A stretch of DNA of 47,674 nucleotides. It comes from Actinomycetes bacterium (GTDB lineage Bacteria; Actinomycetota; Acidimicrobiia; Acidimicrobiales; GCA-2861595). Under the pieces are notes generated by a model that saw nothing but the letters and a program-made list of their open reading frames with translations, had not been told where the DNA came from and did no database searches. The position numbers and the translations under genes were made by a program. The first letter of the stretch is position 1. Each line of letters opens with the position of its first letter. The stretch is taken from assembly GCA_023264975.1 (NCBI GenBank), contig JAHFUS010000030.1:1-47674 (forward strand), in the 5' to 3' direction. Positions 10,868-44,061 of the stretch are shown piece by piece.

Positions 10868-11236
10868 GTATACCTATCGACCGAATCGTGCCCCGACCGT
10901 AGGACCGGGGATCCCTCGCCCCGCTCTCGCCCGCCGACTCGTAGTCGGGTTTCGGGCTACCGGACCAGGGGCCCGAGGAGGTGACGTTTGGTGGTCGGGG
11001 CCTGGCCCGAAACGTGCCGAAGGTGTCGGTGAGCGGGGTGCGTGTGGGTTCGTGTGGGTTCGTGTGGGTTGAGACCCGCCGAATGGGCTGCACAATGAGG
11101 CCTGGCGTCACGGGGTGGGCCTGCGGCCACGTGCGGGTTCCGGGCCGATGAGCTGAGAAACGCCACCACGATGGCCTCGTCGGAACCCGGCCGAAGATCA
11201 CCTGCTACCGCGCCAGCGCCCTACCCGACCGGTTGG
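10868..11236. other. Structured non-coding region upstream of the histidine kinase
   Basis: 369 bases without a convincing gene. It holds a 6-bp hairpin CCGACT-CGT-AGTCGG (10934-10948), a 9-bp inverted repeat GTTTCGGGC (10949-10957) and GCCCGAAAC (11005-11013) with a GC-rich interior, and three exact tandem copies of CGTGTGGGTT (11041-11070). It should contain the promoter of the kinase (minus strand) and the end of the tldE transcript (also minus strand). A small RNA is possible, but I could not match it to a known family. Confidence 0.4.
11041..11070. repeat. Three tandem copies of a 10-bp unit
   Basis: CGTGTGGGTT occurs three times without spacers or mismatches. Ten bases is close to one helix turn, so a protein binding each copy would sit on one face of the DNA. 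It could equally be a plain slippage product. Confidence 0.9.
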
Positions 11237-15552: not shown

Positions 15553-15762
15553 CAGTGTCTGGCGAGTCGTCGATGGTGACGCGTGCTCGACGCCCAACGC
15601 GTCAGAGCGAATCTCAGGGCGGGCAGCGACCGTGAGGCGGCGCCGGCCCACCGGTACTGCTGCGACGGCCGGTCCCCATCTCGCCGCTCCGGGGCTGACG
15701 CGACAAGATGAAGGCGAGCGCCAGCCCGGATCGGGGCGCAGTCGACGGCGTCTGGAGGGGTT
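15553..15762 (+). terminator. Intergenic gap with terminator-like hairpin (15577-15604)
   Basis: TGACGCGT (15577-15584) and ACGCGTCA (15597-15604) form a perfect 8-bp stem with a 12-base loop, 24 bases after the stop of the glycosyltransferase gene. No T-run follows, as is common for terminators of high-GC genomes. The rest of the gap probably holds a promoter for the dehydrogenase gene; its ribosome-binding site GGAGGGG is at 15754-15760. Confidence 0.4.
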
Positions 15763-16953
15763 GTGGGTTTCACGCGGGACATCGTGGTGGTCGGGGGGTG
15801 CGGGCACGTGGGCCTCCCGCTCGGCCTGACCTTCGCCGAGCGGGGACTGAACGTCGCCCTCTACGACGTGAACGAGGCGGCGGTCGCCACCGTGAACTCC
15901 GGGACGATGCCCTTCGACGAGCCGGGCGCTGAGGAAGTCCTGCGCCGGGTGGTCGGCACGAACTTCGAGGCGAGCACCGACCCATGTGTCGTCCGGTCGG
16001 CCGAGTGCGTGGTGGTCGTCATCGGCACGCCCGTGGACGAGCACCTCAACCCCGATCCACTTGCCGTGCCCTTCGCCGTGGAGGCGCTGGCCGCCCACCT
16101 CGTCGACGGCCAGTTGCTCGTGCTCCGCAGCACCCTCTACCCGGGAGTGACCACACTGGTGGCCGAGGTCATCGAGCGCCTCGGGCTCGACGTCGATGTC
16201 GCGTTCTGCCCTGAGCGCATCGCCGAGGGCAAGGCCATGGTCGAGCTGTACGAGCTGCCGCAAATCGTGTCGGGACGGAGCCCGCAGGCGGTCGAGCGGG
16301 CCGAGAAGCTCTTCCGTAACCTCACCGAGCAGGTCGTGCACCTCGAGCCCGAGGAAGCCGAGCTGGCCAAGCTGTTCACCAACACGTGGCGGTACCTGCG
16401 CTTCGCCATCGCCAACCAGCTGTTCATGATCGCCAACGACTTCGGTGTCGACTACGAGCGCCTGCGCTCGGCCATGGCCTTCGACTACCCCCGGGCGGCC
16501 GACCTGCCCGGCGCCGGCTTCGCCGCCGGGCCGTGCCTGTTCAAGGACACCATGCAGCTGGCCGCTTTCAACAACAACAACTTCGTGCTCGGCCACGCCA
16601 GCATGACGGTGAACGAGGGTCTGCCCCTGTACCTGGTGGCGCGTCTGGAGAAGCAGTACGACCTGAAGTCGCTCACCGTCGGCATCCTCGGCATGGCGTT
16701 CAAGGCGGAGTCGGACGACATCCGGTCGAGCCTCAGCTACAAGTTGAAGCGCATCCTGCGGTTCAAGGCGGGCGCCGTGCTGTGCACCGACCCCTACGTG
16801 ACCGTCGACTCCGGTCTCGTGCCGCTCGACGATGTGCTGGAAATGGCGGACCTCCTCATCGTGGGCGCACCGCATCGCGTGTACGCCGACCTCGAGCTGC
16901 GTCAGCCGGTCGTCGACGTGTGGAACCTGTTCGGCCGAGGCGTCCGCACATGA
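15763..16953 (+). CDS. Nucleotide-sugar 6-dehydrogenase (UDP-glucose / UDP-ManNAc dehydrogenase family)
   Basis: A 396-residue cytoplasmic enzyme that oxidises the C6 hydroxyl of a nucleotide sugar to a uronic acid with two NAD+. Seen: N-terminal NAD fold with GGCGHVGLPLG (11-21), VIGTPVDEH near 87, the central helix with FTNTWRYLRFAIANQL around 205-220, catalytic Cys258 in GFAAGPCLFKD, and a C-terminal domain with ILGMAFKAESDDIR. CPERIAEGKAMVEL (149-162) is closer to UDP-N-acetylmannosamine-type dehydrogenases than to classic UDP-glucose dehydrogenase; the true substrate is not decided by sequence. GTG start with a strong ribosome-binding site. Overlaps the next gene by four bases. Confidence 0.88.
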   Translation: MGFTRDIVVVGGCGHVGLPLGLTFAERGLNVALYDVNEAAVATVNSGTMPFDEPGAEEVLRRVVGTNFEASTDPCVVRSAECVVVVIGTPVDEHLNPDPLAVPFAVEALAAHLVDGQLLVLRSTLYPGVTTLVAEVIERLGLDVDVAFCPERIAEGKAMVELYELPQIVSGRSPQAVERAEKLFRNLTEQVVHLEPEEAELAKLFTNTWRYLRFAIANQLFMIANDFGVDYERLRSAMAFDYPRAADLPGAGFAAGPCLFKDTMQLAAFNNNNFVLGHASMTVNEGLPLYLVARLEKQYDLKSLTVGILGMAFKAESDDIRSSLSYKLKRILRFKAGAVLCTDPYVTVDSGLVPLDDVLEMADLLIVGAPHRVYADLELRQPVVDVWNLFGRGVRT

Positions 16954-17699
16954 TCGGCCCGGACGAAGCGCCGCGCCTGACGGTGGTGATCACCGCGTAC
17001 AACGAGGGCGACCAGATCGTCACGTGCCTCGACCGCGTGCTCGAGGCGGTCACCCTGTCGTGCGAAGTTCTCGTGGTGTACGACACGCCCGACGACACCA
17101 CCGCCCCGTACGTCGAGAAGTACGCCGAGACGGACCCGAGGGTCGTCCCGTCGCTCAACGCGTACGGGCGGGGGCCGGCGCGCGCCATCCGATGGGGTGT
17201 CGACCAGGCCCGGGCGAGAGTCGTGGTCGTCACCATGGCCGACGGGTGCGACGACCCGCAGCAGATCGACCAGCTGGCCCGCCTGGTCGAGCGCGGCGTC
17301 GTGGTCGCCGCCGCCTCTCGCTATGCCCAAGGGGGCCAGCAGGTGGGCGGTCCCCTCCTCAAGCGCACCATGTCCCGGATGGCCGGCCTCTCCCTCCACC
17401 TCTTCGCCCGGGTCGGCACCCGCGACGCCACGAACTCGTTCAAGGCCTACGACCGCACGTTCGTACGCAACGTCGGCATCGAGTCCGACGCCGGCTTCGA
17501 GGTGGGCCTCGAGCTGGTCGCCAAAGCGAGGCGGCTGCGCCTTCCCGTGGCCGAGGTCCCGACCATATGGCTCGACCGCAGCTTCGGGGTGTCGAACTTC
17601 AAGCTGGCGAAGTGGCTCCCGAAATACCTGCGTTGGTACCGCTTCGCCTACGGTCCCAAACTGCGGATGGAACACTTCACGAAGGACGTGGTTTCGTGA
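16950..17699 (+). CDS. GT2 glycosyltransferase, dolichol-phosphate-mannose-synthase-like
   Basis: A 249-residue transferase without membrane spans. LTVVITAYNEGDQIVTCLDR at the start and VVVVTMADGCDDPQQIDQL near residue 92 are the donor-binding blocks of the DPM-synthase/GT2 group, with ADGCDD replacing the usual DxD. Such enzymes often transfer a sugar from a nucleotide donor to polyprenyl phosphate, which could feed the membrane GT-C type proteins encoded just downstream; this link is an inference. ATG at 16950 overlaps the dehydrogenase stop, and the gene overlaps the epimerase by four bases, so these genes form one operon. Confidence 0.85.
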   Translation: MIGPDEAPRLTVVITAYNEGDQIVTCLDRVLEAVTLSCEVLVVYDTPDDTTAPYVEKYAETDPRVVPSLNAYGRGPARAIRWGVDQARARVVVVTMADGCDDPQQIDQLARLVERGVVVAAASRYAQGGQQVGGPLLKRTMSRMAGLSLHLFARVGTRDATNSFKAYDRTFVRNVGIESDAGFEVGLELVAKARRLRLPVAEVPTIWLDRSFGVSNFKLAKWLPKYLRWYRFAYGPKLRMEHFTKDVVS

Positions 17700-26889: not shown

Positions 26890-27879
26890 CTACAGCAGTC
26901 CCAGACGGGCGTCGCCCACCATGCTCAGCATCGCCGCCCGCATCGCCTCCCGGGAGGTGTGCTTGCAAACCCACCCCAGAGACCGAATCCTTTCGGTGGC
27001 GATGCGCACGATGGGCACGTCGCCCTTCCATCCGCGGTCGCCTCCGGTGAACCGGTAGACGACCGATGCGGGATCCAGGCCGACGCATTCCACCGCCAAG
27101 TCGGCGATCTCCTTCACAGTGACGTAGTCGCCGGTGGCCACGTTGAAGGGCTGGAAGATGCGGCCCTCCCATTCGTTGGCGAGAAGCACGGCGCTCACCA
27201 CGTCGCTGACGTGGACGTACGACTTGCTCTGGCTGCCATCGCCGAGGATCGGAAGGGTGCTGGGGTTGTCGAGCAGGCGGCGCACGAAATCGAAGCCCAC
27301 GCCGTGCGTCTGGCGGGGGCCGACCACATTCCCGAACCGGAATACCCGCCCCGACAGGCCGAACATGTGGGCATATGCGGCGATCATGGCCTCGCCCGCG
27401 AGCTTGCTGGCCCCATAGGTGGAGACCGCCTCGAGGGGCCCCCGGTCCTCGTGCGCCTCGACCTCCCCGAGGTCGCCGTACACGCCGCTACCCGAGGCGT
27501 ACAGGATCCGCTCGGTACCGGTGTGTCGCATCGCCTCGACAACGTGGTGGGTCAGCAGCGTGCCCTCGTCGAAGTCGACGGCGGGCTCGGTGGCGGCCCG
27601 TGCGATGTCGGGATTCGACGCCAGGTGGATGACGACCTGGTGGCCGGCCATCGCGGCGGTCAGCTCTTTGAGATCGTGTACGTCCGCCCTCACAACTGAC
27701 AGCCGCGGGTCGGCGGCGTGTTGATCGAAATGCCAATCCCGGCCGGACGAGAAGTTGTCGAACAGCGTAACGCGGTCGACGCCGTCGCTAGCGAGGAGCC
27801 GGTCCGTGAAATGGCTGCCGATGAAGCCGGCGCCACCAACCAGGAAGTAGCGGCTGGCGTTCAGCGGACCGACTCCCAT
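26890..27879 (-). CDS. NAD-dependent sugar epimerase/dehydratase (extended SDR)
   Basis: A 329-residue enzyme with GGAGFIGSHFTDRLL (NAD motif), YASGSGVYGD (active-site Ser) and YGASKLAGEAMIAAYA (Tyr-x3-Lys). FGNVVGPRQTHGVGFDFV and LPILGDGSQSKSYVHVSDVV are typical of UDP-glucose 4-epimerase-like proteins. Within a GDP-heptose operon it might act on GDP-heptose as an epimerase or dehydratase, giving a modified heptose, or on a UDP-sugar; sequence alone does not decide. ATG 27879 overlaps the end of the SIS-isomerase gene by 19 bases. The frame is open upstream of this start but reads as the shadow of the SIS gene. Confidence 0.85.
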   Translation of the reverse strand: MGVGPLNASRYFLVGGAGFIGSHFTDRLLASDGVDRVTLFDNFSSGRDWHFDQHAADPRLSVVRADVHDLKELTAAMAGHQVVIHLASNPDIARAATEPAVDFDEGTLLTHHVVEAMRHTGTERILYASGSGVYGDLGEVEAHEDRGPLEAVSTYGASKLAGEAMIAAYAHMFGLSGRVFRFGNVVGPRQTHGVGFDFVRRLLDNPSTLPILGDGSQSKSYVHVSDVVSAVLLANEWEGRIFQPFNVATGDYVTVKEIADLAVECVGLDPASVVYRFTGGDRGWKGDVPIVRIATERIRSLGWVCKHTSREAMRAAMLSMVGDARLGLL

Positions 27880-28460
27880 TTGGTGGACTGCAGCTGGAGA
27901 GCGGGGTGGCTCACGAGGAGGTGCCACACCACTGCACACAGACCCTCGGTGTGCGGGGTGATCCGGTCGGAGTGCAGGGGCGGGATGACCACGCACGCGT
28001 TGGCCGTCCGGGCCGTGAAGCCGCCGTCCCGGCCCACGACCCCGAAGACGCGGGCGCCGACCTCGACGGCGAGCTCGACCGCCCGCACCAAATTCACGGA
28101 GACGTTCTTCTCCCGGTCCCCGCCGCCCACCGAGAACACCAGCACAGCATCATCGGGACCCAGCCGGGAGCCCTTCAACCACTCCGAGAAGCTCGTGTCC
28201 CAGCCTTCGTCGTTGACCCGCGCCGTGAGCTCCGAGACGTTGTCGGTCGGGGCGTAGGCCTCGAACTGGCAGATCTTCCGGAAGTCGTTGACGGCATGGC
28301 CGGCATGGCCGGCGGAGCCTCCTACACCGAGGATGAACAGCCGTCCGCCCGCGTCGCGGATGGCCGCAAGCCCTTCTGCGAGCCGCTCGATCTCGTCGTG
28401 GTCGAGCCTCTCCACGATTGAGACGGTCTCGTCGAGGAACGTGCGGGTGAAGGTATGCAT
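27861..28460 (-). CDS. SIS-domain sugar isomerase, GmhA-like
   Basis: A 199-residue protein with one SIS domain. LFILGVGGSAGHAGHAVNDF (41-60) is the phosphosugar-binding loop and matches sedoheptulose-7-phosphate isomerases, which have SAGHAxHxxxD; VFSVGGGDREKNVSVNLVRA is the second phosphate-binding segment. GmhA converts sedoheptulose 7-phosphate to D-glycero-D-manno-heptose 7-phosphate, the first committed step of heptose synthesis. SGGGxxxNV-type residues are conserved, though this is a diverged member, so I leave the gene symbol open. ATG 28460 has GAGG a few bases upstream and lies 11 bases after the methyltransferase stop. Confidence 0.85.
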   Translation of the reverse strand: MHTFTRTFLDETVSIVERLDHDEIERLAEGLAAIRDAGGRLFILGVGGSAGHAGHAVNDFRKICQFEAYAPTDNVSELTARVNDEGWDTSFSEWLKGSRLGPDDAVLVFSVGGGDREKNVSVNLVRAVELAVEVGARVFGVVGRDGGFTARTANACVVIPPLHSDRITPHTEGLCAVVWHLLVSHPALQLQSTKWESVR

Positions 28461-28471
28461 GGGTTCTCGCC

Positions 28472-29098
28472 TCACTCGGCTCGGCAGACGGCGAAGGTGT
28501 TCAGGCCGAGCTTGTGCCTGAAGCACCGGATGTTGTGGGGCACGAATCCGGCCCGCACGAGCAGGGGCCACAGGTCCGAAGGGTCGAAGTACGTCTTGTG
28601 GTCGTCCATCTCCTCGACCGGGCTGAGCCCGAGCCGGAAGGCGGAGAACTCGAGGGCCCGCTTACCCAGCCACGACGGGACGTTGACCAGGCACACGCCG
28701 CCCTGCGCCACGATGCGGCGGCATTCTGCCAGCAGTACCGCCGGCTCCCAGAGGTGCTCGAGGACCGACAGGCAGGTCACGACGTCAAGGGAGCTGTCGG
28801 CGACGGCATCGAGTGCGGCGGGGAGGGCTCCTTCGATGGCGGTGACGTTGGGGTGGTTCTTCAGGTCTTCGGACAAGGCCACATCCACGAGGACCGCATG
28901 GCCGATCGTGTCGAGCTCCCCGCGGAGCCAGGAGGCGTGGAACCCACAGCCGAAGTCGCCGACGCGTAGCCCGTCGAGGCGGGGGACGGCGCGCCGGATC
29001 GACCGGCCAGACAGCCACACGCCGACCTTGTCGACGACGGATGGCTCGTCTTCCTGGCCGAATGCCCGCTCCCGGGTCGGCGGTTCAGCGGCTGCCAT
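28472..29098 (-). CDS. SAM-dependent methyltransferase
   Basis: A 208-residue class I methyltransferase with the SAM motif VGDFGCGFHASWL at residues 46-58 and DVVTCLSVLEHLWEPAVLLAE as the central block. It belongs to the broad group often found in glycan clusters. The ATG at 29098 lies inside the end of the membrane GT2 gene (14-base overlap), so translation is coupled. The C-terminal half (HKTYFDPSDLWPLLVRAGFV) resembles methyltransferases that act on lipid- or sugar-linked substrates. Substrate not known. Confidence 0.82.
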   Translation of the reverse strand: MAAAEPPTRERAFGQEDEPSVVDKVGVWLSGRSIRRAVPRLDGLRVGDFGCGFHASWLRGELDTIGHAVLVDVALSEDLKNHPNVTAIEGALPAALDAVADSSLDVVTCLSVLEHLWEPAVLLAECRRIVAQGGVCLVNVPSWLGKRALEFSAFRLGLSPVEEMDDHKTYFDPSDLWPLLVRAGFVPHNIRCFRHKLGLNTFAVCRAE

Positions 29099-30332
29099 GT
29101 CGGTGCCCGTGGAGCGCGGCTGCGTGCAGCACGAGGGTGAAGGTGAAGGTGGTGAAGCTGGCGATGGTGAGGAGCAGGCCGGTGACGGCGAGGTGATTCC
29201 GCACCCCGATGTCGGTCGGGAGGGTGAGCCCGGACTGCACGTACGTGAGGACGAGGGGCGCGATGAGGCCGAGGCCGACGAGGAAGGTGATGGCGCTGGC
29301 GATGACCGTGCGCGTATACGAGAAGAAGCCCAGCCAACGCTCCCTGGCCCGGCCTGAATAGTCGTAGAACAGCTGGGCCAGGCAGCCGAAGAAGAAGCTC
29401 TGCAGGCCGAGGATCGACAGCGCCAGGCCGACCAGCATGCTGAACAGCGAGAACGTCACCGGACCGACGGTGACCGGACCGAGGCTGAGCGGCACGGTCA
29501 GGAGCAGCCCGACGGCGAGGAGGGCCAGGCCCGGCTTGAAGGCGAAGAAGTCCGCGCCGTAGACGAACATGGCGCGCAGGTTGATCCACGCCGCCTGGAA
29601 CGGCGAGAACCATCCCGCCCGTTTGTGATGGCTGAGGCGTCCGTCCCGGTCCTTCAGGAAGCTCACCGGCACCTCGGCCGTGCGAAGGCCCATGTGCACC
29701 GACTTCAGCACCATCTCCGATGCGTACTCCCACGACTGGGAGCGGATCTCCATGCGCTCGAGCCCGTCTCGCGTGATGCCGCGCATGCCGCAATGGATGT
29801 CGGAGAACCGGCACGAGTACAGCCGGTTGAGGATCCAGGTGGTGAGGGGTGTGCCGAAGTAGCGGTGCAGCGCCGGCATCGAGCCCGGCTCGATCGACCC
29901 GCGAAAGCGCGAGCCCATCACGAACTCGAACCCTTCACGAAACATGTCGACGAACGGACGCAGCTGGCGGAAATCGTAGGTGCAGTCGCAGTCGCCCATC
30001 ACCACGTACTTGCCGCGGATGTAGGGGAGGGCGTCGATGTAGGCGCGTCCCAACCCCCGCCTCGGGGTGGTCAGGACGCGCGCACCCCGCGCAAGTGCTA
30101 TCTCGGCGGTACGGTCCGTCGAGCTGTCGATGATGAGGATCTCACCGACGATGCCCGCCTCGGCAAGTCCTCGCTTGCACCAGTCGAGGAAGTCACCGAT
30201 CGTGATCTCCTCGTTCAGCGCAGGGATGACGATCGACAGCTCGGGGTCGCTCACGTCGTCGACCGGCAGGCTGAGACGAGTGTCCATGTCGAGGGTGATC
30301 GCCATCGAGTTCTCCGAGGTCGGGGCCGTCAT
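29085..30332 (-). CDS. Membrane-anchored GT2 glycosyltransferase (polyprenyl-phosphate sugar synthase type)
   Basis: A 415-residue protein: cytoplasmic GT-A domain (32-250) with LSIVIPALNEEITIGDFLDW, LIIDSSTDRT and the metal-binding DCD at 114-116, then four membrane spans at about 266-284, 292-312, 341-363 and 380-403. This build is that of DPM/GtrB-like enzymes that move a sugar to polyprenyl phosphate for use outside the membrane. ATG at 30332 has a weak ribosome-binding site (GGCAGGT); an in-frame ATG at 30305 is the alternative. The frame is open up to 30416 but reads as non-protein. The gene overlaps the next by 14 bases. Confidence 0.85.
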   Translation of the reverse strand: MTAPTSENSMAITLDMDTRLSLPVDDVSDPELSIVIPALNEEITIGDFLDWCKRGLAEAGIVGEILIIDSSTDRTAEIALARGARVLTTPRRGLGRAYIDALPYIRGKYVVMGDCDCTYDFRQLRPFVDMFREGFEFVMGSRFRGSIEPGSMPALHRYFGTPLTTWILNRLYSCRFSDIHCGMRGITRDGLERMEIRSQSWEYASEMVLKSVHMGLRTAEVPVSFLKDRDGRLSHHKRAGWFSPFQAAWINLRAMFVYGADFFAFKPGLALLAVGLLLTVPLSLGPVTVGPVTFSLFSMLVGLALSILGLQSFFFGCLAQLFYDYSGRARERWLGFFSYTRTVIASAITFLVGLGLIAPLVLTYVQSGLTLPTDIGVRNHLAVTGLLLTIASFTTFTFTLVLHAAALHGHRHGSR

Positions 30333-30378
30333 ACCTGCCGGTCGGCGACGCTGGCAAGCCGCCAGGCGCAAAACGGTA

Positions 30379-31098
30379 CTACTGCCGCGGTCCGGACAAA
30401 TGAATCTCGAGGTCACGGAGACCGGAAGGCGAGCCGACCTCGAAGAAGCGCTCCTTCACCTCGTGGCCGCCCAGCAGCCCCTCCACGCTCAATTGATGAA
30501 AGATTTCGGCTAGGTCGGCGGTACGGTCCCGAGGCACGCGCTCGGCCACGACGTCCCTGCGCAGCACGGAGAGGCCGTAGTCCACGAAGTCGAGGCCGCT
30601 TCCCGCAGGATCAGGGTGCGACTTCTGGTAGAGCAGCACCCGCTCGTCCCGGTAGCGGACGTTGCTGTTCTCCCACCGGCCCTCGTTCCGGAACACCGTC
30701 ATGAGGGCAGGGCAACCCGATCGCTCGAAGGCGGAGATCACCGGCGCCAAGTCGACGGGAAGGTACGAGTCGCCGTAGAGCACGATGAAGGTGGGCGGCA
30801 GCGTTCCTTGGTCGAGGGCCAGCCGCAGGGCGCCGGCCGTGCCGCGCAGGTGCGGTCCCTCGTCGGCATAGGTCACCGACAGGCCCCAGTCCCCACCGTC
30901 GCCGACGTAGCTGCGGACGGCCTGACCGAGGTGGCCGATGCACATCGTGACCGATGTCACATGTTGGCCCGCCAGCCACGACAGCTGATGGTGGAGGAAG
31001 GGTCGGCCGCCCACCGGGACCAACGCCTTGGGCAGCGGACCGGTGATCGTCTGCATCCGGGTGCCGAGGCCGCCGGCGAGGATCATGCAGGGAATCAC
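30379..31098 (-). CDS. hddC: Heptose-1-phosphate guanylyltransferase-like nucleotidyltransferase (HddC-like)
   Basis: A 239-residue nucleotidyltransferase with MILAGGLGTRMQTITGPLPK at the N-terminus (nucleotide loop and metal-side Arg/Lys) and LPPTFIVLYGDSYLPVDL as the Asp metal motif. This short class includes HddC, which joins GTP and D-glycero-alpha-D-manno-heptose 1-phosphate to GDP-heptose, and also glucose- and mannose-1-phosphate enzymes. The neighbouring hddA-like kinase makes HddC the best reading. GTG at 31098 is 40 bases downstream of the kinase stop; an ATG at 31086 is in frame. The gene product would be cytoplasmic. Confidence 0.8.
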   Translation of the reverse strand: MIPCMILAGGLGTRMQTITGPLPKALVPVGGRPFLHHQLSWLAGQHVTSVTMCIGHLGQAVRSYVGDGGDWGLSVTYADEGPHLRGTAGALRLALDQGTLPPTFIVLYGDSYLPVDLAPVISAFERSGCPALMTVFRNEGRWENSNVRYRDERVLLYQKSHPDPAGSGLDFVDYGLSVLRRDVVAERVPRDRTADLAEIFHQLSVEGLLGGHEVKERFFEVGSPSGLRDLEIHLSGPRQ

Positions 31099-31138
31099 GG
31101 CCGGGACGCCTGCGGAGACCAGCGCAGGGGACTGTCGG

Positions 31139-32122
31139 TCACGCCCCGCGGGCCGTCACCGTCGACCCGTCGTGGTCGAACGCGAATCGGAGTTCCGTGA
31201 GCCCCGCCGAGGTCATGGCGTCGCGGAGACGGGCCCTGTCGGTGGCGTAGAAGAGGAGGAACCCTCCCGCGCCCGCTCCGACCAGCTTGCCGCCGAGGGC
31301 ACCGTTCTCCATCCCCAGGTCGTACCACCGGTTGATCTCGGTCGAGCTGATCCCCTGCGACCGCTCCTTCTTGTGAAGCCAGTGCTCGTGCATGAGGGTG
31401 GCGAAGCGGGCTGTGTCGCCTGCCTCGAGGGCCTCTTTGGTGGCCGCCCCCAGCTTCTTCACCATGTGCAGGCTTTCGAACATGCGCTCGTCCCCGGCTT
31501 CCGAGCGTTGCTGCTGATCGCGAAGCACCTCGGAGGACTGCCGCGAGTAGCCCGTGAAGAACATCACGAGGTGCTCCTCGAGGTCGTGCAGCGTCTCGTT
31601 GGAGATCGCCAGAGGTGACACCTGGACCCGTCCGCTGTGGCCGAACTCGAAGCAGGTGAGGCCACCGAAGGCGGCGATGTACTGGTCCTGCTTGCCCACA
31701 GGCTGCCCGAGCAGGTCGATCTCGATGTGGCAGGCCTCTTCGGCCAGCGCTCCGGCTGTCACATGCTCTCGCTTGAACGCGTACAGGGCTCGCAAGAGCC
31801 CGACGGTGAAGGTGCCAGAGGATCCGAGGCCGGTCCCAGCGGGAATGTCGGCGAGGCTCACCAGCTCCAGGGCAGGACCGACCGGATGAAGGCGCATGGC
31901 CTCACGCACGATGGGGTGGGCGATGTCGTCGATCTCCTGGACCCGTTCCAAGGCCGAGTACTTGATGAAGTAGTCGTCGGTGAACGTGCGGTTGATGCCG
32001 ATGTAGACGTACTTATCTATAGCGGCGGAGATGACCGAGCCGCCATGGCGCCGGTAGTATGAAGGAAGGTCGGTACCCCCGCCACCAAGGGTGATTCGCA
32101 GGGGGGTCCGCGTGATGATCAC
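31139..32122 (-). CDS. hddA: D-glycero-alpha-D-manno-heptose 7-phosphate kinase (HddA-like GHMP kinase)
   Basis: A 327-residue GHMP kinase. MIITRTPLRITLGGGGTDLP at the start and LADIPAGTGLGSSGTFTVGL (91-110; ATP loop PAGTGLGSSG at 94-103) are the family motifs; KLVGAGAGGFLLFY near the C-terminus is the third motif. The first block is that of HddA, which phosphorylates C1 of heptose 7-phosphate; fucose and N-acetylgalactosamine kinases are the less likely options. It is the first gene of the ten-gene run. GTG at 32122 follows GAGG a few bases upstream, and a good -10 element lies in the leader region (32182-32187 on this strand). Confidence 0.88.
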   Translation of the reverse strand: MIITRTPLRITLGGGGTDLPSYYRRHGGSVISAAIDKYVYIGINRTFTDDYFIKYSALERVQEIDDIAHPIVREAMRLHPVGPALELVSLADIPAGTGLGSSGTFTVGLLRALYAFKREHVTAGALAEEACHIEIDLLGQPVGKQDQYIAAFGGLTCFEFGHSGRVQVSPLAISNETLHDLEEHLVMFFTGYSRQSSEVLRDQQQRSEAGDERMFESLHMVKKLGAATKEALEAGDTARFATLMHEHWLHKKERSQGISSTEINRWYDLGMENGALGGKLVGAGAGGFLLFYATDRARLRDAMTSAGLTELRFAFDHDGSTVTARGA

Positions 32123-35851: not shown

Positions 35852-36676
35852 ATGACGACCCTCGCTGAGTACTCCGCGTCAAAGGAGTTGATGGCCAACC
35901 TCACCTTGCGTGAGCTCCGGGCCAAGTACAAGCGGTCCGTGCTCGGCTGGGCGTGGTCCCTCCTGAACCCGCTCGCCACCATGTTGATCTTCACGCTGGT
36001 GTTCGGGTACTTCCTGAAGGTCCAGCCGCCGAGGGGCTCGCCCAGTGGCATCAAGAACTTCGCCGTCTTCCTCCTCTGCGGGCTGCTGCCGTGGAACTAC
36101 CTCACGGCCAGCGTCGGCGGCTCCATCGGCAACCTGTTGGGGAACGCCAATCTGGTCAAGAAGACGTATTTCCCCCGGGACCTGCTGGTGGGGTCCCTAG
36201 TGGCCTCGTGCCTCGTGTCGTTCCTCATCGAGATGGGCCTGCTGGGCGTAGCACTGCTCATCTTCGGCAACGCCATCTTTCCGTACCTGCCGGTCGCCTT
36301 CGGGCTCATCATGTTCCTCACCCTCTTCGCTACAGGGCTCGGCCTGGCGTTCAGCGTGCTCAACGTCTACTTCCGGGACGTCCAGCACCTGGTGAACATC
36401 ATGTTCCAGGTGTGGTTCTACCTCAACCCGATCGTGTACCCCCTCAATCTCGTCCCCCAGAAGGCCCACGTCCTCGGTTTCGTCCTACCGACCCGAGCGA
36501 TCTACGAGCTGAACCCGATGGTCGGTTTCGTCGAGTCATTCCGGGACCTCCTTTACGACCTCAGGATGCCCCCGACGGCGAAGATCGCCTACCTCGTCCT
36601 CGTGTCCGTGGCGACCTTCATTGCCGGGCTGTCGCTGTTCAACAAGCTCGAGGGAAGGCTGGCCGAGGAGCTGTGA
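35852..36676 (+). CDS. ABC-2-type polysaccharide export permease (Wzm-like)
   Basis: A 274-residue inner-membrane permease with six hydrophobic spans. LTLRELRAKYKRSVLGWAWS near the N-terminus, just before the first span, is the amphipathic start typical of Wzm, TagG and KpsM-like permeases; GLLPWNYLTASV and NLVKKTYFPRDLL are also family blocks. It forms a channel with the ATPase encoded next and exports a finished, lipid-linked polysaccharide or a teichoic-type polymer. ATG at 35852; the stop overlaps the ATPase start by four bases. Confidence 0.92.
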   Translation: MTTLAEYSASKELMANLTLRELRAKYKRSVLGWAWSLLNPLATMLIFTLVFGYFLKVQPPRGSPSGIKNFAVFLLCGLLPWNYLTASVGGSIGNLLGNANLVKKTYFPRDLLVGSLVASCLVSFLIEMGLLGVALLIFGNAIFPYLPVAFGLIMFLTLFATGLGLAFSVLNVYFRDVQHLVNIMFQVWFYLNPIVYPLNLVPQKAHVLGFVLPTRAIYELNPMVGFVESFRDLLYDLRMPPTAKIAYLVLVSVATFIAGLSLFNKLEGRLAEEL

Positions 36677-37881
36677 CCGACGTCGCCGTTGTCGCCGAGG
36701 GCGTCTCCAAGCGCTTCCGGCTCTACCACGAGCGCAACCAGTCCCTGAAGGCCGCCCTGATGCGGAAACGTCGTTCGGTGGTGGAGGAGTTCTGGGCGCT
36801 GAAGGACGTGTCCGTCGAGGTGCAGGAGGGAACTACGTTCGGAATCATCGGCGAGAACGGCTCCGGCAAGAGCACGCTGATGAAGTGCATGGCCAAGATC
36901 CTCCGGCCCGACCACGGCAAGGTGGCGGTGTACGGAAAGGTGTCCGCGCTCTTGGAGCTGGGGGCCGGATTCCACCCTGAGCTCTCGGGCCGGGAGAACG
37001 TCTACCTCAACGGCTCGATCCTGGGGATCAGCCAGAAGGAGTTGACCCGCCGGTTCGATGACATCGTCGACTACGCCGGCCTGGGTCAGTTCATCGACCA
37101 GCCGGTGAAGAACTATTCGTCGGGGATGTATGTCCGCCTCGGCTTCTCCGTGGCCATCAACGTCGACCCGGATGTCCTGCTGGTCGACGAGGTCCTGGCC
37201 GTCGGTGATGAGGCGTTCCAGCGCAAGTGCGGTGAGAAGTTCGCCGAGCTGCGCAAGGAGGGCAAGACGATCATCCTCGTCTCCCACGGGATGGTGGCGG
37301 TTCACAATCTCTGCGACAGGGTGGCCTGGCTCGACCACGGGCAGGTGAAGATGATCGATTCGGCCCGCCGGGTGGTGGACGAGTACACGGGGACCGTGCA
37401 GGTTGACAGCAAAGCTGATGGCGAGTCGGGCAGCCGGTGGGGCTCGGGCGAGGGCCGCATCGAAGCCGTCGAGCTCCTGGATGGGCGCGGGTCCCCGGTG
37501 ACCCTGAACCGCACCGGTGACAGTGTCACCGTCCGGATCCACTACGAGTTGGCCGAGCCCATCGAGCAGCCCCTGTTCCAGGTCACCATCCAGACGCTCG
37601 ACGGCACGCACGTCTCCGGACCGAACTCGCGGGACGCCGGCCTCGAGATCCCACGCCTGGATGGTGGGGGACATGTCGACCTGTGCATCGACCGCCTGCT
37701 CCTCGTCCCGGGCACGTACGACCTCTCCGCCGCCATCTACGACCACGGCATGCAGCACCCGTACGACGTGCGTCACCACATTCTGCGCTTCCATGTAGAG
37801 CCGGGAGAGCCTCGTGAAACCTTCGGCGTGGTCTCGCTCGGAGGACGTTGGCGGGTCAGCGGCCCGGTCGACACCCTCTGA
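36673..37881 (+). CDS. ABC transporter ATPase with C-terminal carbohydrate-binding domain (Wzt-like)
   Basis: A 402-residue ATPase. N-terminal nucleotide-binding domain: Walker A GENGSGKST (60-68), Q-loop region, signature NYSSGMYVRLG (147-157), Walker B VLLVDEV (168-174), switch His in VSHG. After residue 245 a second domain (255-395) of beta type follows, as in Wzt of E. coli O9a/O8, where it reads the modified end of the O-polysaccharide before export. This predicts that the chain is finished with a cap, and the methyltransferase and pyruvyltransferase-like genes here would suit that. GTG at 36673 overlaps the permease stop. Confidence 0.9.
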   Translation: MTDVAVVAEGVSKRFRLYHERNQSLKAALMRKRRSVVEEFWALKDVSVEVQEGTTFGIIGENGSGKSTLMKCMAKILRPDHGKVAVYGKVSALLELGAGFHPELSGRENVYLNGSILGISQKELTRRFDDIVDYAGLGQFIDQPVKNYSSGMYVRLGFSVAINVDPDVLLVDEVLAVGDEAFQRKCGEKFAELRKEGKTIILVSHGMVAVHNLCDRVAWLDHGQVKMIDSARRVVDEYTGTVQVDSKADGESGSRWGSGEGRIEAVELLDGRGSPVTLNRTGDSVTVRIHYELAEPIEQPLFQVTIQTLDGTHVSGPNSRDAGLEIPRLDGGGHVDLCIDRLLLVPGTYDLSAAIYDHGMQHPYDVRHHILRFHVEPGEPRETFGVVSLGGRWRVSGPVDTL

Positions 37882-37894
37882 CCCAGGGCATCGG

Positions 37895-40800
37895 TCAGCC
37901 CCGGATGCGGAAGGGGTGCAGGCGCTCCAGGTTGGCGTTGTAATACCCGTCGAGGCACTTGTGCGTCACCCAACGGGCCTCGAAGAAGTCGTCGTCGTCG
38001 ACGTGGGCATGGACTCCCCTGGTGCCGCCCTCGACGTGGAAGAGCTCGGCGTAGGGGGTGTAGACGATCTGGTAGCCGGCTTGTCGGACGCGTAGGCAGA
38101 GATCCACGTCGTTCCACGCGATCCGCAGGCGCTCCTCGTGGCCACCCACCTCCCAGTACACCGACGGCCGCATCAGAAGGCATGCGCCTGTGACGGCCGA
38201 GCAGTTGCGGACGATGTCGCCGAGGCCCCAGTACCCGCCGTGGTCGACGTTGCCGGCATGACCGCCCTTGTGACCGATGATCGTGCCTTCGTGTTGCGGC
38301 CGCCCGCTCGGGTAGAGGAGTCGAGGGCCGACGATGCCGACCTCGGGCCGCTGACCGTGCTCTACCAGGGCTTCCAGCCACTCAGGGGAGACGACCTTGG
38401 TGTCGTTGTTGAGGAACAGGAGCATGTCCCCGCCCGCCTCGTGGGCCGCCAGGTTCATCATCCGCGCGTAGTTGAAGCGGTACGGGTAGCGCACCACCTG
38501 GCCGGGGAAGTCGGCAAGATAAGCGAGCGTCTCCGGGTCCGAGCTCTGATTGTCGACCACGATGATCTCGTAGTTCGTGTAGTTGGAGCGCTCCCGGACG
38601 CTGTCGATGCAGGTTCGGAGCAGGTCCACCCTGTCGCGGGTGGGGATCAGAATCGACACCTTGGGCCGGCCCCGCAGGTGGTAGCGGACCCGGTACGAGG
38701 TGGGAAGCATGCCGTCGACGACGTCCCCGGGCGTCCCCCGTCGTTCCAGGGCGTCGTACAGGACGCGTTTGGCGGCATCGAGAGCCCAGGGCTTGGCATC
38801 GCCGTCGGTCGCCGTCGATCCGGGCACCTTGCGCCACGTGTAGAGCGGCTCGTGCACATGGGCTATCCGGTCCGTGAGCTCGGTCGCACGGAGCACCAGG
38901 TCGTAGTCCTGGCTCCCGTCGGTCCCGGGCCGTAAACCTCCGAGCTCGTCGAGCAGGCGCCGCCGCACGACGAGCAGGTGGCACACGTAGTTGCGCGACA
39001 TGAGGTGATCGGGGGACCAGTCGGACTTGAAGAACGGGTCGACAAGGCGACCGTCCGGTTCACGTTTGTCCTCGTCGGTGTAGATGAGGTCCAAGTCGGC
39101 ACGGTCGTCGAGGGCAAGGGCGATCTCGCCGAGGGCATGCGGCTTGAGCTCGTCGTCATGGTCGAGGAAGCCCACGAAGTCGCCCGTGGCCACGGCCAGG
39201 GCGGCATTGGTGGCGCCGACGATGCCCTGCCGGCCCGGCAGGCGGACGAGGCGGATGCGCGGCTCCTCCGCCAGGTGCGCGTCCAGGACGTCGAGGGTGC
39301 GCTGGTCGCTCGAGCCGTCGTCGCCGATGCACAGCTCCCAGTTGTCGTAGACCTGGGACCGCACTGACGAGATGGCGTCGTGCAGCCACGATGGCTCGGT
39401 GTCGAACACCGGCATCACGATGCTGATCCTCGGCCGCCGGACGAGCCCTTCGAGGCGCTCGGCCAGCCTGGCGAGGCGCCGGGGCGTCGGTCCGTACCGG
39501 GCGCACCAACGCCCATACTGGTCGTTCACCGGGACCTCGCCCCAGTGGGCGTCCGGAACGGGAGCGGGAATCTCGGGCACTGGCCCGTCCGCCGCCGGCG
39601 GGGCCGCCTTCCACGCCGACCCCACCACGGCGACGTTGTGGGGCCGCAGCTGCAGTTCCTGGATCGGGCGGACCGGCGCCGGCGGCGCCGCGAGGCGGGC
39701 GCCGGGACGGGGGGCGATGCCCGCGTCGGCACATGCCCGGAGCAGCTTGAGCCGGACCGCCGATGCGCAACGGGGGCCGTCGGCCAGCCGTACGAGCTCT
39801 CCGTGGACGTCGTCCCAGAGGTCCTGACGGTCGTGAAGGTGTTCCGCCCGAAGGGACATGGACAGCACGTCGTCCGTGGTGACCAGGGGAGGCAGTCGTC
39901 GCCCCAGTCCGCGGTCACGCACGGCCGCGGCTGACGTCACGAACGGGGTCCGGGCGTCGAGCGCCATCGCGATCGCCTCCCGGCTCCCGGCTCCTCTCGG
40001 GTACCACGCCAGGCAGACGCGGGACCGGCGGAACCAACGCCCCGGGTCGTCGCCGGCGGGCACGAGTTCGATATGGGAGCCGGCGAGGAGCTGGAGAGCC
40101 GGGGACGGGTCGTCGACCACCACTCGAAGGAATGCATCCGGGTCACGCGCAAGCAGACGAGGGAGAACGTCATGTACCGCATGGAGGACGGCGTCCTCAT
40201 GGCCGGCCGTTATGTCCGCGCCGGGCGCGCCCAGGACGACGTAGCCGGACCGGCGGTCGAACGCCACGTCGGTGCCGGGAGCGACGACGGTGGGGATCAC
40301 GACGCTCGGGATGCCCGGCGCCGCAGATGCCACCCAGGCCTGGTCCTGGGGTGTCGCGCACCACGCCGCGTCGAAGGTCCCGAGGGCGCGGGCGACCTGT
40401 TCCTCGACGGTCCGCACCAGCAGCTGCCGCCCCTGGCGGTCCTCTGGACCGTCGCCGGCGGCGGAGGCCGAGACCATGTCCTGGAACTCCAGGGACGGCA
40501 CGGCCAGGACCCGAAAGGCCTGGGGCTGCGTCTGGCACAAGAGCCCGTCGAGGCGCCGGATGCTCGCGATGTCGGTGATCACGACATGGGTGAACAGCAG
40601 CGAGCGGCGCCGGAACCACCGGTCCCAGTCCTCCGGGCCTGTCGCCACCTCGATCCCCTGGCGGAGGATCCGGGGGGCCGACCGTCGGGCGCCGTGGCCC
40701 TCGAGGGCGAGCACGGTGATCTGCCCGTCGGGCATGAGGGACGCGAGATCGCCGACGAGCTGATCGACACGGCGCTCGGCATGGGTGCCGCGCTCGGACG

Positions 40801-41539
40801 GCAGGGCGCTCGATACGACGAGGATCCGGTCGCCACAGGCGGCGTCGCGGACTGCCACCGGACGGTCGCCCTCCTCGGCCACACAACCCCGCACCACCAC
40901 GCGCGAAGCGGGCTCGTAGACAGTCTCCAGACCGAGGGCCCTGAGTGTGAGCGACAGACCGATGCCGGCGGCGACGGGATCGTCGTACGTGGGGTCGAAG
41001 CCTCCTGCCGCCTGGAACGAGGACCTCCGGGCCCCGATGCAACCCCGGGAGCCGCCGTCGGTCCTCCTCGGGAAAAGGTGCTCGAGCGCATCGGCCCCTT
41101 GCGCGGGAAGGGCGGTGACGGCGCCGTCGCGGTCGAGCACGTACCCGGCCTCGAGAAGCCGCCCGTCGGGCGACACCACCTGGGGGACTGCGCAGCCTAC
41201 CGACGCGTCTCCCATGGTGGCGAGGAGCGGCGCCAGCCACTCACCCGTGCCCGTGGCCAGGGGAGAGACGAAACAGAGGAAGCGGCCGACCGCAGCCGAC
41301 GCTCCGTGATTTGCGGCAGCCCCGAACGGAACGGCGTGTGCAAGGGTGACGACGCGGGCCTGGGGCGACCTCGAGACGTCGGGCGCGCCAGTGCCGTTGG
41401 CCACCACGATGACCTCGATGGCGACGGGTGCTCCCAGCACGGCGTCCACGGCCGCATGAGGCGGTGGATCGTCCGTCCCCACCACGATGACGACCGATGC
41501 TTCGATCTGGCCGCCCATGACGGGGGAGGCCAGACTCAC
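37895..41539 (-). CDS. Giant multi-domain glycosyltransferase (GT2-like, GT-B-like, GT2, GT2)
   Basis: A 1214-residue protein. Residues 14-218 look like a GT2 domain (EVIVVANGTG, then VGRFLCFVSPLATGTGEW) whose metal motif has been lost, so it may be structural. Residues 238-620 resemble a GT4-like GT-B fold. Residues 704-950 are a full GT2 (ISIVMPVFDTEPSWLHDAIS, FLDHDDELKP). From about 955 a second full GT2 follows (VSILIPTRDRVDLLRTCIDS, LLFLNNDTKV, and WNDVDLCLRVRQAGYQ). Two active sites at the C-terminal end are likely. GTG at 41539 overlaps the stop of the methyltransferase fusion. The end faces the end of the ATPase gene at 13 bases. Confidence 0.85.
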   Translation of the reverse strand: MSLASPVMGGQIEASVVIVVGTDDPPPHAAVDAVLGAPVAIEVIVVANGTGAPDVSRSPQARVVTLAHAVPFGAAANHGASAAVGRFLCFVSPLATGTGEWLAPLLATMGDASVGCAVPQVVSPDGRLLEAGYVLDRDGAVTALPAQGADALEHLFPRRTDGGSRGCIGARRSSFQAAGGFDPTYDDPVAAGIGLSLTLRALGLETVYEPASRVVVRGCVAEEGDRPVAVRDAACGDRILVVSSALPSERGTHAERRVDQLVGDLASLMPDGQITVLALEGHGARRSAPRILRQGIEVATGPEDWDRWFRRRSLLFTHVVITDIASIRRLDGLLCQTQPQAFRVLAVPSLEFQDMVSASAAGDGPEDRQGRQLLVRTVEEQVARALGTFDAAWCATPQDQAWVASAAPGIPSVVIPTVVAPGTDVAFDRRSGYVVLGAPGADITAGHEDAVLHAVHDVLPRLLARDPDAFLRVVVDDPSPALQLLAGSHIELVPAGDDPGRWFRRSRVCLAWYPRGAGSREAIAMALDARTPFVTSAAAVRDRGLGRRLPPLVTTDDVLSMSLRAEHLHDRQDLWDDVHGELVRLADGPRCASAVRLKLLRACADAGIAPRPGARLAAPPAPVRPIQELQLRPHNVAVVGSAWKAAPPAADGPVPEIPAPVPDAHWGEVPVNDQYGRWCARYGPTPRRLARLAERLEGLVRRPRISIVMPVFDTEPSWLHDAISSVRSQVYDNWELCIGDDGSSDQRTLDVLDAHLAEEPRIRLVRLPGRQGIVGATNAALAVATGDFVGFLDHDDELKPHALGEIALALDDRADLDLIYTDEDKREPDGRLVDPFFKSDWSPDHLMSRNYVCHLLVVRRRLLDELGGLRPGTDGSQDYDLVLRATELTDRIAHVHEPLYTWRKVPGSTATDGDAKPWALDAAKRVLYDALERRGTPGDVVDGMLPTSYRVRYHLRGRPKVSILIPTRDRVDLLRTCIDSVRERSNYTNYEIIVVDNQSSDPETLAYLADFPGQVVRYPYRFNYARMMNLAAHEAGGDMLLFLNNDTKVVSPEWLEALVEHGQRPEVGIVGPRLLYPSGRPQHEGTIIGHKGGHAGNVDHGGYWGLGDIVRNCSAVTGACLLMRPSVYWEVGGHEERLRIAWNDVDLCLRVRQAGYQIVYTPYAELFHVEGGTRGVHAHVDDDDFFEARWVTHKCLDGYYNANLERLHPFRIRG

Positions 41540-43737
41540 AGGCGGCTGCCGCGAAGCCTGGCGTACACCGCCCGGGCGGGCCGGAGCAGGCGCAGGACCC
41601 GGACGCCCTGGAGGGCTTCAAGGTCGGCGACCGCGCGGTCGGCCCGGCTCTGGAGCTCGGCTTCGCGGTCAGCGCGCTCGGATGCCTGCCGCACGGCGGC
41701 GTCGAGGGTGACGCGCTCGCTGCGGAGCCGTGCGATCTCGGCCTCTGACCGCCCCAGCGCCGCCTCGTGCCGGCAGCGGAGGCGGTCGAGATGGGCCGCT
41801 ATGGCGCGCCGTTCGCCCTCGATGCGCTCCTGGATCCGGCGATGGGCGAGCCCAAGGGCGGCCACGTACTCGGCCGGTGGCAGCTGCGCACTGCTGTCGG
41901 ACGTGCGCGGCCGGGCAGCAGCGGCGGCATCGGCGATGCCCGCCAACCGGTCGAAGTGGGCGTCGAGCCTCGACTGCATCTTGGCCACGACCCCGGCAGC
42001 GGGGCGGAAGCGCTCATCGTCGAGCAGCCGGGCCAGCTCGGTCGGATCGGTGACGACGGCGTCGAGGTTTCCGGTGATGCCGGCCAGCTGGCTCATGGTC
42101 ACGTCTCCGGCCAGGTCCACGAAGGCCATCACCCGCTCGCTTGCGAGGCCGAGCGCAGCTCCGGACGGTGAGCACGTGGCGAACGCCGTCGCGCCGACGA
42201 TGGCGGCGACGAGATCGTCCGCCCCCACCTCACCCGGGAGTCGATAGACGGGAGCCGCCATGGCGCTCGCCACGGCATCGGCCACCTGGTCGACGGCGCC
42301 GCCGTGGGACTCGATCTGGACGAGGACCACGCTGCCACCGGAGGCGGCGACCGCCGAGTCCAGCGCCCGGGCCACCGCCGAGGTGTGCGGCACGAGACCG
42401 CCACCCAGCTCCACGACGACGGCGGGACCCTCCGGGGGGAACCAGCCCATGATCCGAAGGAACTCCAGCCGCCGGGCAAGCGCGTCGGGCCGTAGAAGGC
42501 GCGGCACGAGCAGCAGCGGGTCCGGAACGGCGATCGCCGCGTCGTCCGGCTGGTTGGGCCGCGCGTGGGCCCAGCCGACGTCGAGGACGGCTCGATAGGC
42601 CGGATGGGCAAGGGTCGGATCGGGCGCGACGACGGGCTGCTCCGGCAGGCGGACCGCGCTCCAGATCACGGGGCAGTCGTCCTCGGCGTCCCGGGCGGGT
42701 CCCTCCAGGATGAACCGTGCCGGGTGGCGACCACCCTCGACTGCGGCATCGCCGGGCTCCGGCAGGTCCCCCACGATGACGACGCAGTCGAGGTCGGTGG
42801 CGAGGGTGCGGGCCCGCTCGGGCGACCACTGCCCGAGCGCCTCTACCGGCACGCCGCCGTCGTGACGGCTCGGTCGAGGACCGGCGTCGGCCGAGAAGGA
42901 CCGGATGGCGCTGCCGGGCAGCCGGCGCGCCAGCTCCGCCCGAGTCAGGCGCATGACGAGCGCCTGGCGCACGTCGTCGGGGTCGATGGTGGCCCAGATG
43001 CCGATCCGGCACCTCTCCGCTCCGGGGGATGACAGCGCCGCGGGCGCCCCTGGAGTGCCGTCCGCGCCTTCCTCCGGTACGGCTCGCACGACGAACTGGT
43101 ACGTCGTGGAGTCCGGGTCGCCCTCCACCGCGTCGACGATGCCCTCGTCGAAATCCTCTCGCCGGAGCCTGATCTCGGTGTCGAAAACGCCGGCCGTCGT
43201 GCGCCGGACATCGATGGGAACCAGGCCGGCTTGGCGAAGGAGCTCATGGACCGATCCCCGTGTGAAGAACCGGAGGTGGGTCGAGTCGAGCAGTCCGAGG
43301 GGCCGGTAATCGAACCTCCCGGCCAACAGGGCGAGACGGACCGACCCGTGCGCTACGTTGGGGATCGAAGCCACGACCGCCCCCGAATCGGTGAGCAGCG
43401 GACGGACCTTTCTCAGCACAGCCAAGGGGTCGGACAGATGCTCGAGGACATCGCCGAAGACCACGGCGTCGAAGCTCTTCTCGCCGAAGTGACCAACCAG
43501 GTCGAGGGTGTTGACGTCGCCGACAATGACCTCGTCCAGCACCTCGCGGGCCTGGAGTGCCGCCGGCTCGTCCTCTTCGACACCCGACACCCGACACCCG
43601 CGCCGCTTGAGCATCTCGCCGAGGTACCCGGTAGCGCAGCCGACGTCGAGGACCCGCTGGTTGCGGCCGACGAGGTTCACCAAAAGAGCGTGGCTCGTGT
43701 TCTCGTTGCGAAGATCAACCTCCGCCTCGTACCTCAT
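41536..43737 (-). CDS. Methyltransferase fused to a pyruvyltransferase-like domain and a coiled coil
   Basis: A 733-residue fusion. Residues 1-220: class I methyltransferase, SAM motif VLDVGCATGYLGEML (29-43), DAVVFGDVLEHLSDPLAVL. Residues 243-570: a domain resembling polysaccharide pyruvyl transferases, with IGIWATIDPDDVRQALVMRL, VVVELGGGLVPHTSAVARAL, VVLVQIESHGG and AAIVGATAFATCSPSGAALG; the usual RLHA histidine site appears replaced by SPSGAALG, so it may be altered or inactive. Residues 625-710: Arg/Glu/Ala-rich coiled coil. The methyl and pyruvyl parts would both modify the glycan, perhaps its end. ATG at 43737; open frame upstream is not protein-like. Confidence 0.75.
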   Translation of the reverse strand: MRYEAEVDLRNENTSHALLVNLVGRNQRVLDVGCATGYLGEMLKRRGCRVSGVEEDEPAALQAREVLDEVIVGDVNTLDLVGHFGEKSFDAVVFGDVLEHLSDPLAVLRKVRPLLTDSGAVVASIPNVAHGSVRLALLAGRFDYRPLGLLDSTHLRFFTRGSVHELLRQAGLVPIDVRRTTAGVFDTEIRLRREDFDEGIVDAVEGDPDSTTYQFVVRAVPEEGADGTPGAPAALSSPGAERCRIGIWATIDPDDVRQALVMRLTRAELARRLPGSAIRSFSADAGPRPSRHDGGVPVEALGQWSPERARTLATDLDCVVIVGDLPEPGDAAVEGGRHPARFILEGPARDAEDDCPVIWSAVRLPEQPVVAPDPTLAHPAYRAVLDVGWAHARPNQPDDAAIAVPDPLLLVPRLLRPDALARRLEFLRIMGWFPPEGPAVVVELGGGLVPHTSAVARALDSAVAASGGSVVLVQIESHGGAVDQVADAVASAMAAPVYRLPGEVGADDLVAAIVGATAFATCSPSGAALGLASERVMAFVDLAGDVTMSQLAGITGNLDAVVTDPTELARLLDDERFRPAAGVVAKMQSRLDAHFDRLAGIADAAAAARPRTSDSSAQLPPAEYVAALGLAHRRIQERIEGERRAIAAHLDRLRCRHEAALGRSEAEIARLRSERVTLDAAVRQASERADREAELQSRADRAVADLEALQGVRVLRLLRPARAVYARLRGSRL

Positions 43738-44061
43738 GCAAGAGCCCCTTGGTCCCCTCGAACTCCGGTCACCAGGAACATCGGTCACCTCGAATTCGAC
43801 CGACAAACCGGAGAACTCCACCCGACAAACCGGAGAACTCCACCCGACACCGAACCGAATCGCCGAGGAGCCTATCGTGCACCGCCTCCTGCGGCACCTG
43901 GGACACCGGCCTCCACGAGGTCCCCGGATGTCACGTGACGCCACGTCGGGCGCCGGACGGGGTGCCAGGCCGCACTCCTGTCCACCGGCAGTAACGTCCG
44001 GGCCATCCAGCTGAGCCCGAAGCACAGCCGGTCCAGGCGTCGGCACCAGGCCCGCCGGTGG
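43738..44061. promoter_or_regulatory. Divergent intergenic region with tandem repeats
   Basis: 324 bases between the fusion gene (minus strand) and the membrane protein gene (plus strand). It holds an exact tandem duplication of 22 bp (43801-43822 and 43823-43844, unit beginning CGACAAACCG), followed by a partial third copy (CGACACCG), and preceded by weaker relatives (AACTCCGGTCACC, TCGGTCACCTCG). CGAATTCG at 43791-43798 is a palindrome. Twenty-two bases is about two helix turns, so a cooperative regulator could bind. No -35/-10 pair stands out. The open frame from 43985 to 44061 (plus) could be an N-terminal extension of the next gene. Confidence 0.5.
43801..43844. repeat. Two exact tandem copies of a 22-bp unit
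   Basis: The unit starts CGACAAACCGGAG and ends AACTCCACC; the copies touch without a spacer and are identical. A third copy is started at 43845 but diverges after CGACA. Confidence 0.92.

Follow-up and report, generated by a model that had tools for sequence, protein, structure and literature searches.

Introduction

In WbdD-type systems for ABC-exported O antigens, an enzyme caps the non-reducing end of the glycan and the glycan-binding domain of Wzt reads this cap, while a coiled coil fixes how far the enzyme lies from the polymerase, which the C-terminal end recruits (PMC3482155, PMC11231755). The combination of a cap and a coiled coil is a characteristic marker of such terminators, and the terminator of Klebsiella O7 joins a methyltransferase to a second domain, a CBM and a coiled coil (PMC11231755). 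We found no characterized terminator of this type in actinobacteria in the literature.

Polysaccharide pyruvyl transferases (PPTs) are recognized by the motifs NxGD, R-xxx-(S/T) and H, and the substitution D106A abolishes activity of Pvg1p (PMC10629545). In CsaB, PEP is bound by R148, H308 and K328; R148K and R148Q are inactive and H308S keeps activity (PMC10435577). Here we have characterized a gene in which a methyltransferase is fused to a domain related to this family. The gene lies in a window, by which we mean the whole analysed stretch, of 47,674 nucleotides from a member of the Acidimicrobiales (Table 1).

Table 1. Features of the fusion locus, with positions in the window and the basis of each assignment
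Feature	Position	Strand	Basis
Fusion gene, 733 aa	41536..43737	−	ATG start at 43737, TGA stop at 41536; orthologues known
Class I SAM methyltransferase, aa 1-225	43063..43737	−	Pfam Methyltransf_23, PDB 3cc8, fused-orthologue identity
Linker, aa 226-242	43012..43062	−	Non-conserved, 23-25% identity among fused proteins
Degenerate PPT domain (putative pseudoenzyme), aa 243-600	41938..43011	−	Homologue G172, profile-profile, alignments
DVRQ, aa 255-258, at NxGD position	42964..42975	−	Alignments
LDVG, aa 385-388, at R-xxx-S PEP-binding position	42574..42585	−	Alignments; CsaB R148
SPSG, aa 523-526, at RLHA / SFHG position	42160..42171	−	Alignments; CsaB H308
Coiled coil, aa 625-714	41596..41865	−	Heptad-table score
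C-terminal tip, aa 713-733	41539..41601	−	Identity among fused proteins
GTGA overlap, fusion stop / glycosyltransferase start	41536..41539	−	Same 4 bases in 4/4 fused copies
Multi-domain glycosyltransferase, 1214 aa, three GT2 stretches	37895..41539	−	Pfam Glycos_transf_2, E 1.5e-52
Wzm-type ABC exporter permease	35852..36676	+	Pfam ABC2_membrane, E 5.5e-16
Wzt-type ATPase with C-terminal glycan-binding Wzt_C	36673..37881	+	ABC_tran, E 3e-20; Wzt_C, E 1.2e-27

Results

Architecture of the fusion protein

GC content by codon position in the fusion reading frame (0.79/0.51/0.86) is of the coding type. The original prediction, that one chain joins a SAM methyltransferase, a pyruvyltransferase-like domain and a coiled coil, was upheld by a Methyltransf_23 match, a relationship to PS_pyruv_trans and the heptad score. 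Residues 25-174 match Methyltransf_23 (E 4e-17) and have PDB 3cc8 as their closest solved structure (E 1.6e-41). This part of the protein is 71-76% identical to its fused orthologues and retains the SAM motifs VLDVGCATGYLG and GDVLEHL, and is probably a working enzyme. The rest of the 733-residue protein gave no curated-family match in Pfam or NCBIfam at E<=1 other than one spurious helical model. Just upstream of the start codon, in a divergent intergenic region, lies an exact 22-bp tandem repeat of 2.3 copies (43800-43849, CCGACAAACCGGAGAACTCCAC).

The coiled coil, expected near residues 625-710, was recovered at 625-714, where scores exceed those of 99% of 5005 control residues and the peak exceeds all of them. 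The underlying heptad table served only for comparison with controls, and the peak was reached by 11 of 300 shuffled versions of the tail. A simple test for 3.5-residue periodicity was not significant for the coil, and amphipathicity of the C-terminus was not exceptional within the protein. Identity among fused proteins is 39-48% in the coil as against 80-95% in the tip that follows it. A low-confidence structure prediction for the PPT and coil portions (pLDDT 45, from an alignment of only two rows) has long helices in the coil region.

Descent of the middle domain from pyruvyltransferases

Direct sequence searches of Pfam (E<=1), NCBIfam and the PDB gave no match to the middle domain, and no relative was found in viral contigs. 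Among the named genomes scanned, the sole relative was encoded by Acidimicrobiales bacterium RYN_50 (contig JAODBK010000091.1; G172). This free-standing protein, from the same order and without a methyltransferase, aligns to residues 245-726 with 34% identity (E 2.9e-45) and is a PS_pyruv_trans member with intact motifs (63.9 bits against a cut-off of 25.3). Because G172 is a clear, motif-intact member, the assignment of the middle domain to PS_pyruv_trans holds. In profile-profile comparisons, the four known fused domains matched five motif-intact homologues from Acidimicrobiia (E 4.9e-51) and nine ordinary actinobacterial PF04230 proteins (probability 92.5, E 5e-7, 323 columns), whereas a control with a GT-B glycosyltransferase reached a probability of only 0.2. 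Descent from pyruvyltransferases is thus well supported by the homologue, the profile matches and the control. The predicted kinship was borne out by this route; a search with the PS_pyruv_trans profile, which had been suggested as a check, gave no direct Pfam match but the family was reached through G172 and profile-profile comparison.

The model of G172 has a pLDDT of 50 overall and mostly 60-87 for residues 191-290, and only its C-terminal half is good; the model matches GT-B folds (UDP-GlcNAc 2-epimerases and glycosyltransferases). The structures 5AX7 and 6X1L are not among the matches listed for this model, which excludes neither. For the structure of WbbZ, UDP-GlcNAc 2-epimerases were matched next after Pvg1p (PMC10629545). 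The predicted model therefore appears consistent with a pyruvyltransferase fold, a statement that applies to the homologue and not to the domain in the window.

Loss of the active-site landmarks

The window domain carries the substitutions N->D255, G->R257, D->Q258, R->L385, H->S525 and K->T547 at the positions of the family landmarks, with the qualification that the alignment of the R-xxx-S stretch is gappy and places its S column at either G388 or W389. The absence of the RLHA site and its replacement by SPSG (S523-G526) had been anticipated, and the loss proved wider than was claimed, extending to NxGD, R-xxx-S, H and K. NxGD is complete in none of the four fused copies, with only single letters surviving (one G003 copy keeps N, the other D), and all four copies have lost the R of R-xxx-(S/T), the RLHA-region histidine and the downstream lysine (CsaB H308 and K328). 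All landmarks are present in the homologues G172, G460, G448 and G467, and G383 lacks only the K.

The replacements vary among the four fused copies, evidence against a single new active site common to them all. Although H->S by itself is no proof of inactivity, the loss of the whole landmark set makes pyruvyl transfer very unlikely, and on this comparison of motifs we regard the fused middle domain as a putative pseudo-pyruvyltransferase. Capping by pyruvate is likewise unlikely because the domain is without the PEP-binding residues.

Distribution of fused and separate forms

Four fused copies were found in three genomes from two genera: one in this window, two in a genome of the same genus (G003; 61% and 54% identity in a whole-protein search) and one in another genus of the same family (G001), where the gene is spread across two contig ends with overlap. 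Presence in three genomes, and twice in one of them, excludes an artefact of assembly as its origin. A search with a local methyltransferase profile detected the fusion in none of 20 long-frame PF04230 matches from 296 actinomycetotal genomes; as the genome samples are draws from larger groups, the rarity of the fusion is an estimate. The claim that this is no standard architecture therefore stands for the sampled Acidimicrobiia and actinomycetotal genomes outside the two genera, and no literature on such a fusion was found. In the sequence tree the fused copies form one clade (support 99/99) and the motif-intact homologues another group; the landmarks may have been lost in a single event or in more than one (support 50/64). 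A different fusion was observed in G178 (L142, 1089-4382), in which the same methyltransferase subfamily shares a frame with some 800 additional residues, among them unannotated glycosyltransferase-like stretches.

A profile of the middle domain found matches in 16 of 395 sampled Acidimicrobiia genomes. Free-standing versions of the degenerate domain persist in several further families within the class (G458, G393, G390, G309, G340, G313, G396 and G054, with G053 and G090 more distant), mostly with coiled-coil-like tails. None of the eight such forms scanned had a PF04230 match above the cut-off, as compared with 92 bits for the motif-intact G460. Relatives of the methyltransferase elsewhere in the order (G033, G117, G239, G271, G169, G125, G236 and others) are methyltransferase-coil proteins without the PPT domain, many of which end in a tip resembling the C-terminus of the fusion. 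A cap with a coil thus exists without that domain, and since methyltransferase-coil and PPT-coil proteins exist separately, the fusion combines the two. Both kinds of gene lie about 8 kb apart on one contig in G172, and in G390 a free-standing methyltransferase-coil gene and two PPT-like genes fall within about 8 kb. The G390 genes belong to an operon-like run (L075, 8313-16143) that also contains glycosyltransferase genes, and its separate methyltransferase-coil gene is of the fused subfamily.

Neighbouring genes

A large glycosyltransferase of the same type follows every fused gene; in the window it is the probable partner and polymerase. About 700 residues precede its two clear GT2 domains (37895-41539); they comprise a weakly GT2-like N-terminus together with a stretch that is GT-B-like by eye, and are perhaps also degenerate domains. 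The Wzm and Wzt genes (35852-37881) adjoin the glycosyltransferase gene and are convergent with the fusion operon, outside it. The Wzt-like ATPase had been predicted to carry a sugar-binding domain, as the Wzt_C match confirms. Wzm and Wzt genes also accompany the fused copies of G003 and G001, and occur in only some of the examined stretches around free-standing PPT-like genes.

In G003 (L047), fusion genes at 10307-12505 (−) and 14733-16979 (+) flank one Wzt-Wzm pair, and each of them overlaps a separate gene for a large glycosyltransferase, an arrangement that is possibly two polymerase-terminator sets sharing one exporter. Elsewhere in the window (27861-32122), genes for a SIS isomerase, nucleotidyltransferase, GHMP kinase, epimerase and methyltransferase form a set resembling the GDP-heptose pathway; the SIS, kinase and nucleotidyltransferase genes are conserved in G003.

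Discussion

We propose that the fusion protein terminates a surface polysaccharide or controls its length, the polymer being exported by the nearby Wzm-Wzt pair, a proposal whose chances we consider evenly balanced. The methyltransferase would add a terminal methyl group and so stop growth of the glycan, and the pseudo-pyruvyltransferase, no longer moving pyruvate, would bind or position the glycan or offer a surface for docking. The coiled coil would act as a ruler that keeps the cap at a distance from the polymerase, the C-terminal tip may recruit the 1214-residue glycosyltransferase and/or contact the membrane, and Wzt_C would read the methylated end and license export. Chain capping with length measurement is plausible by analogy with WbdD, and this model gains circumstantial support from the Wzt_C exporter, the 4-base overlap with a polymerase-type glycosyltransferase and the conserved C-terminal tip. 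Against it, the exporter pair converges on the fusion operon and is not part of it, and G003 has a single Wzm-Wzt pair for two fused copies that are each coupled to a separate glycosyltransferase. The presence of Wzm and Wzt near only some free-standing PPT-like loci, the actinobacterial host and a methyltransferase not visibly close to that of WbdD count against it as well. Methyl and pyruvate are combined at terminal sugars of mycobacterial glycolipids (PMC6801904), a possible reason why the two activities could once have been neighbours.

Many surface-glycan methyltransferases decorate. The methyl group may accordingly be placed on a repeat-unit sugar or side chain instead of terminating the polymer, with the coil only anchoring the protein in a complex at the membrane that includes the glycosyltransferase. 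This reading is rather unlikely: as decoration would allow, the order has many methyltransferase-coiled-coil proteins, and PPT proteins too carry coils that end in similar C-terminal tips, but the studied Wzt_C exporters recognize a terminal modification (PMC3482155) and it is terminators that the pairing of cap and coil typically marks (PMC11231755).

The other alternatives concern the middle domain, which could still be an enzyme with an altered donor or chemistry, making the protein bifunctional like WbdD. Conserved positions of its own (RRLxFLRxMGWxP) are maintained in two genera and CsaB tolerates H308S alone (PMC10435577), but we judge continued catalysis quite improbable given that the PEP and acceptor landmarks are gone as a set and that the four fused copies share no new one. 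Alternatively, the domain may be a decaying, roleless passenger between two useful parts. Its lower conservation (43-55% among fused proteins against 71-76% for the methyltransferase) would agree with decay, yet it is open and colinear in every copy, has about 80 invariant columns in the four sequences, and persists in the same degenerate form as a free-standing protein in several other Acidimicrobiia families, so that we attach very little credence to a domain with no role.

Returning to the terminator model, a wider version of it is possible but more doubtful than not: a dead pyruvyltransferase would have been co-opted by a methyl-capping protein with a coiled coil, in which it binds glycan or provides docking. 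This domain, unseen by Pfam, would also partner glycosyltransferases across the Acidimicrobiia in free-standing proteins with coiled coils, forming a pseudoenzyme family in chain-length control. If the terminator model is right, the scheme of a cap plus a coiled-coil ruler known from Gram-negative O antigens would extend to some Actinomycetota with a different second module, and would point to a family of pseudo-pyruvyltransferases missed by current libraries. As motif-intact relatives occur in the same class, the transition from an enzyme to a module without catalysis is directly testable.

Comparison with known systems

The fusion resembles WbdD of E. coli O9a in its N-terminal SAM methyltransferase and C-terminal coiled coil, and in lying next to a multi-domain glycosyltransferase and to a Wzt that carries a glycan-binding domain. 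It differs in its actinobacterial host, in a second domain that is a putative pseudo-pyruvyltransferase, no kinase match having been found in Pfam, and in a methyltransferase that is no close sequence relative (WbdD is not among its PDB matches). ORF6 of Klebsiella pneumoniae O7 (methyltransferase-kinase-CBM-coiled coil-GT) likewise combines a methyltransferase and a coiled coil with a second domain missed by family libraries; however, that domain is a kinase, and its glycosyltransferase modules are in the same chain, whereas at the fusion locus they are in the next gene. ORF6 also has a predicted non-catalytic glycan-binding domain, and the dead domain of the fusion may act as this CBM may. 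CsaB, Pvg1p and WbbZ (PF04230) share descent with the middle domain, and WbbZ, like the proposed terminator, acts at the chain end beside a multi-module glycosyltransferase; in contrast to these enzymes, the fused domain has lost the catalytic landmarks and is joined to a methyltransferase. The free-standing PPT-coiled-coil proteins of Acidimicrobiia (G172, G460) have the same domain and resemble the fusion in their coiled-coil-like tail and C-terminal end, but have no methyltransferase, and with their motifs intact they are probably active. The fusion protein should therefore be classed neither as a WbdD, being without the kinase, nor as a pyruvyltransferase enzyme, its motifs being lost.
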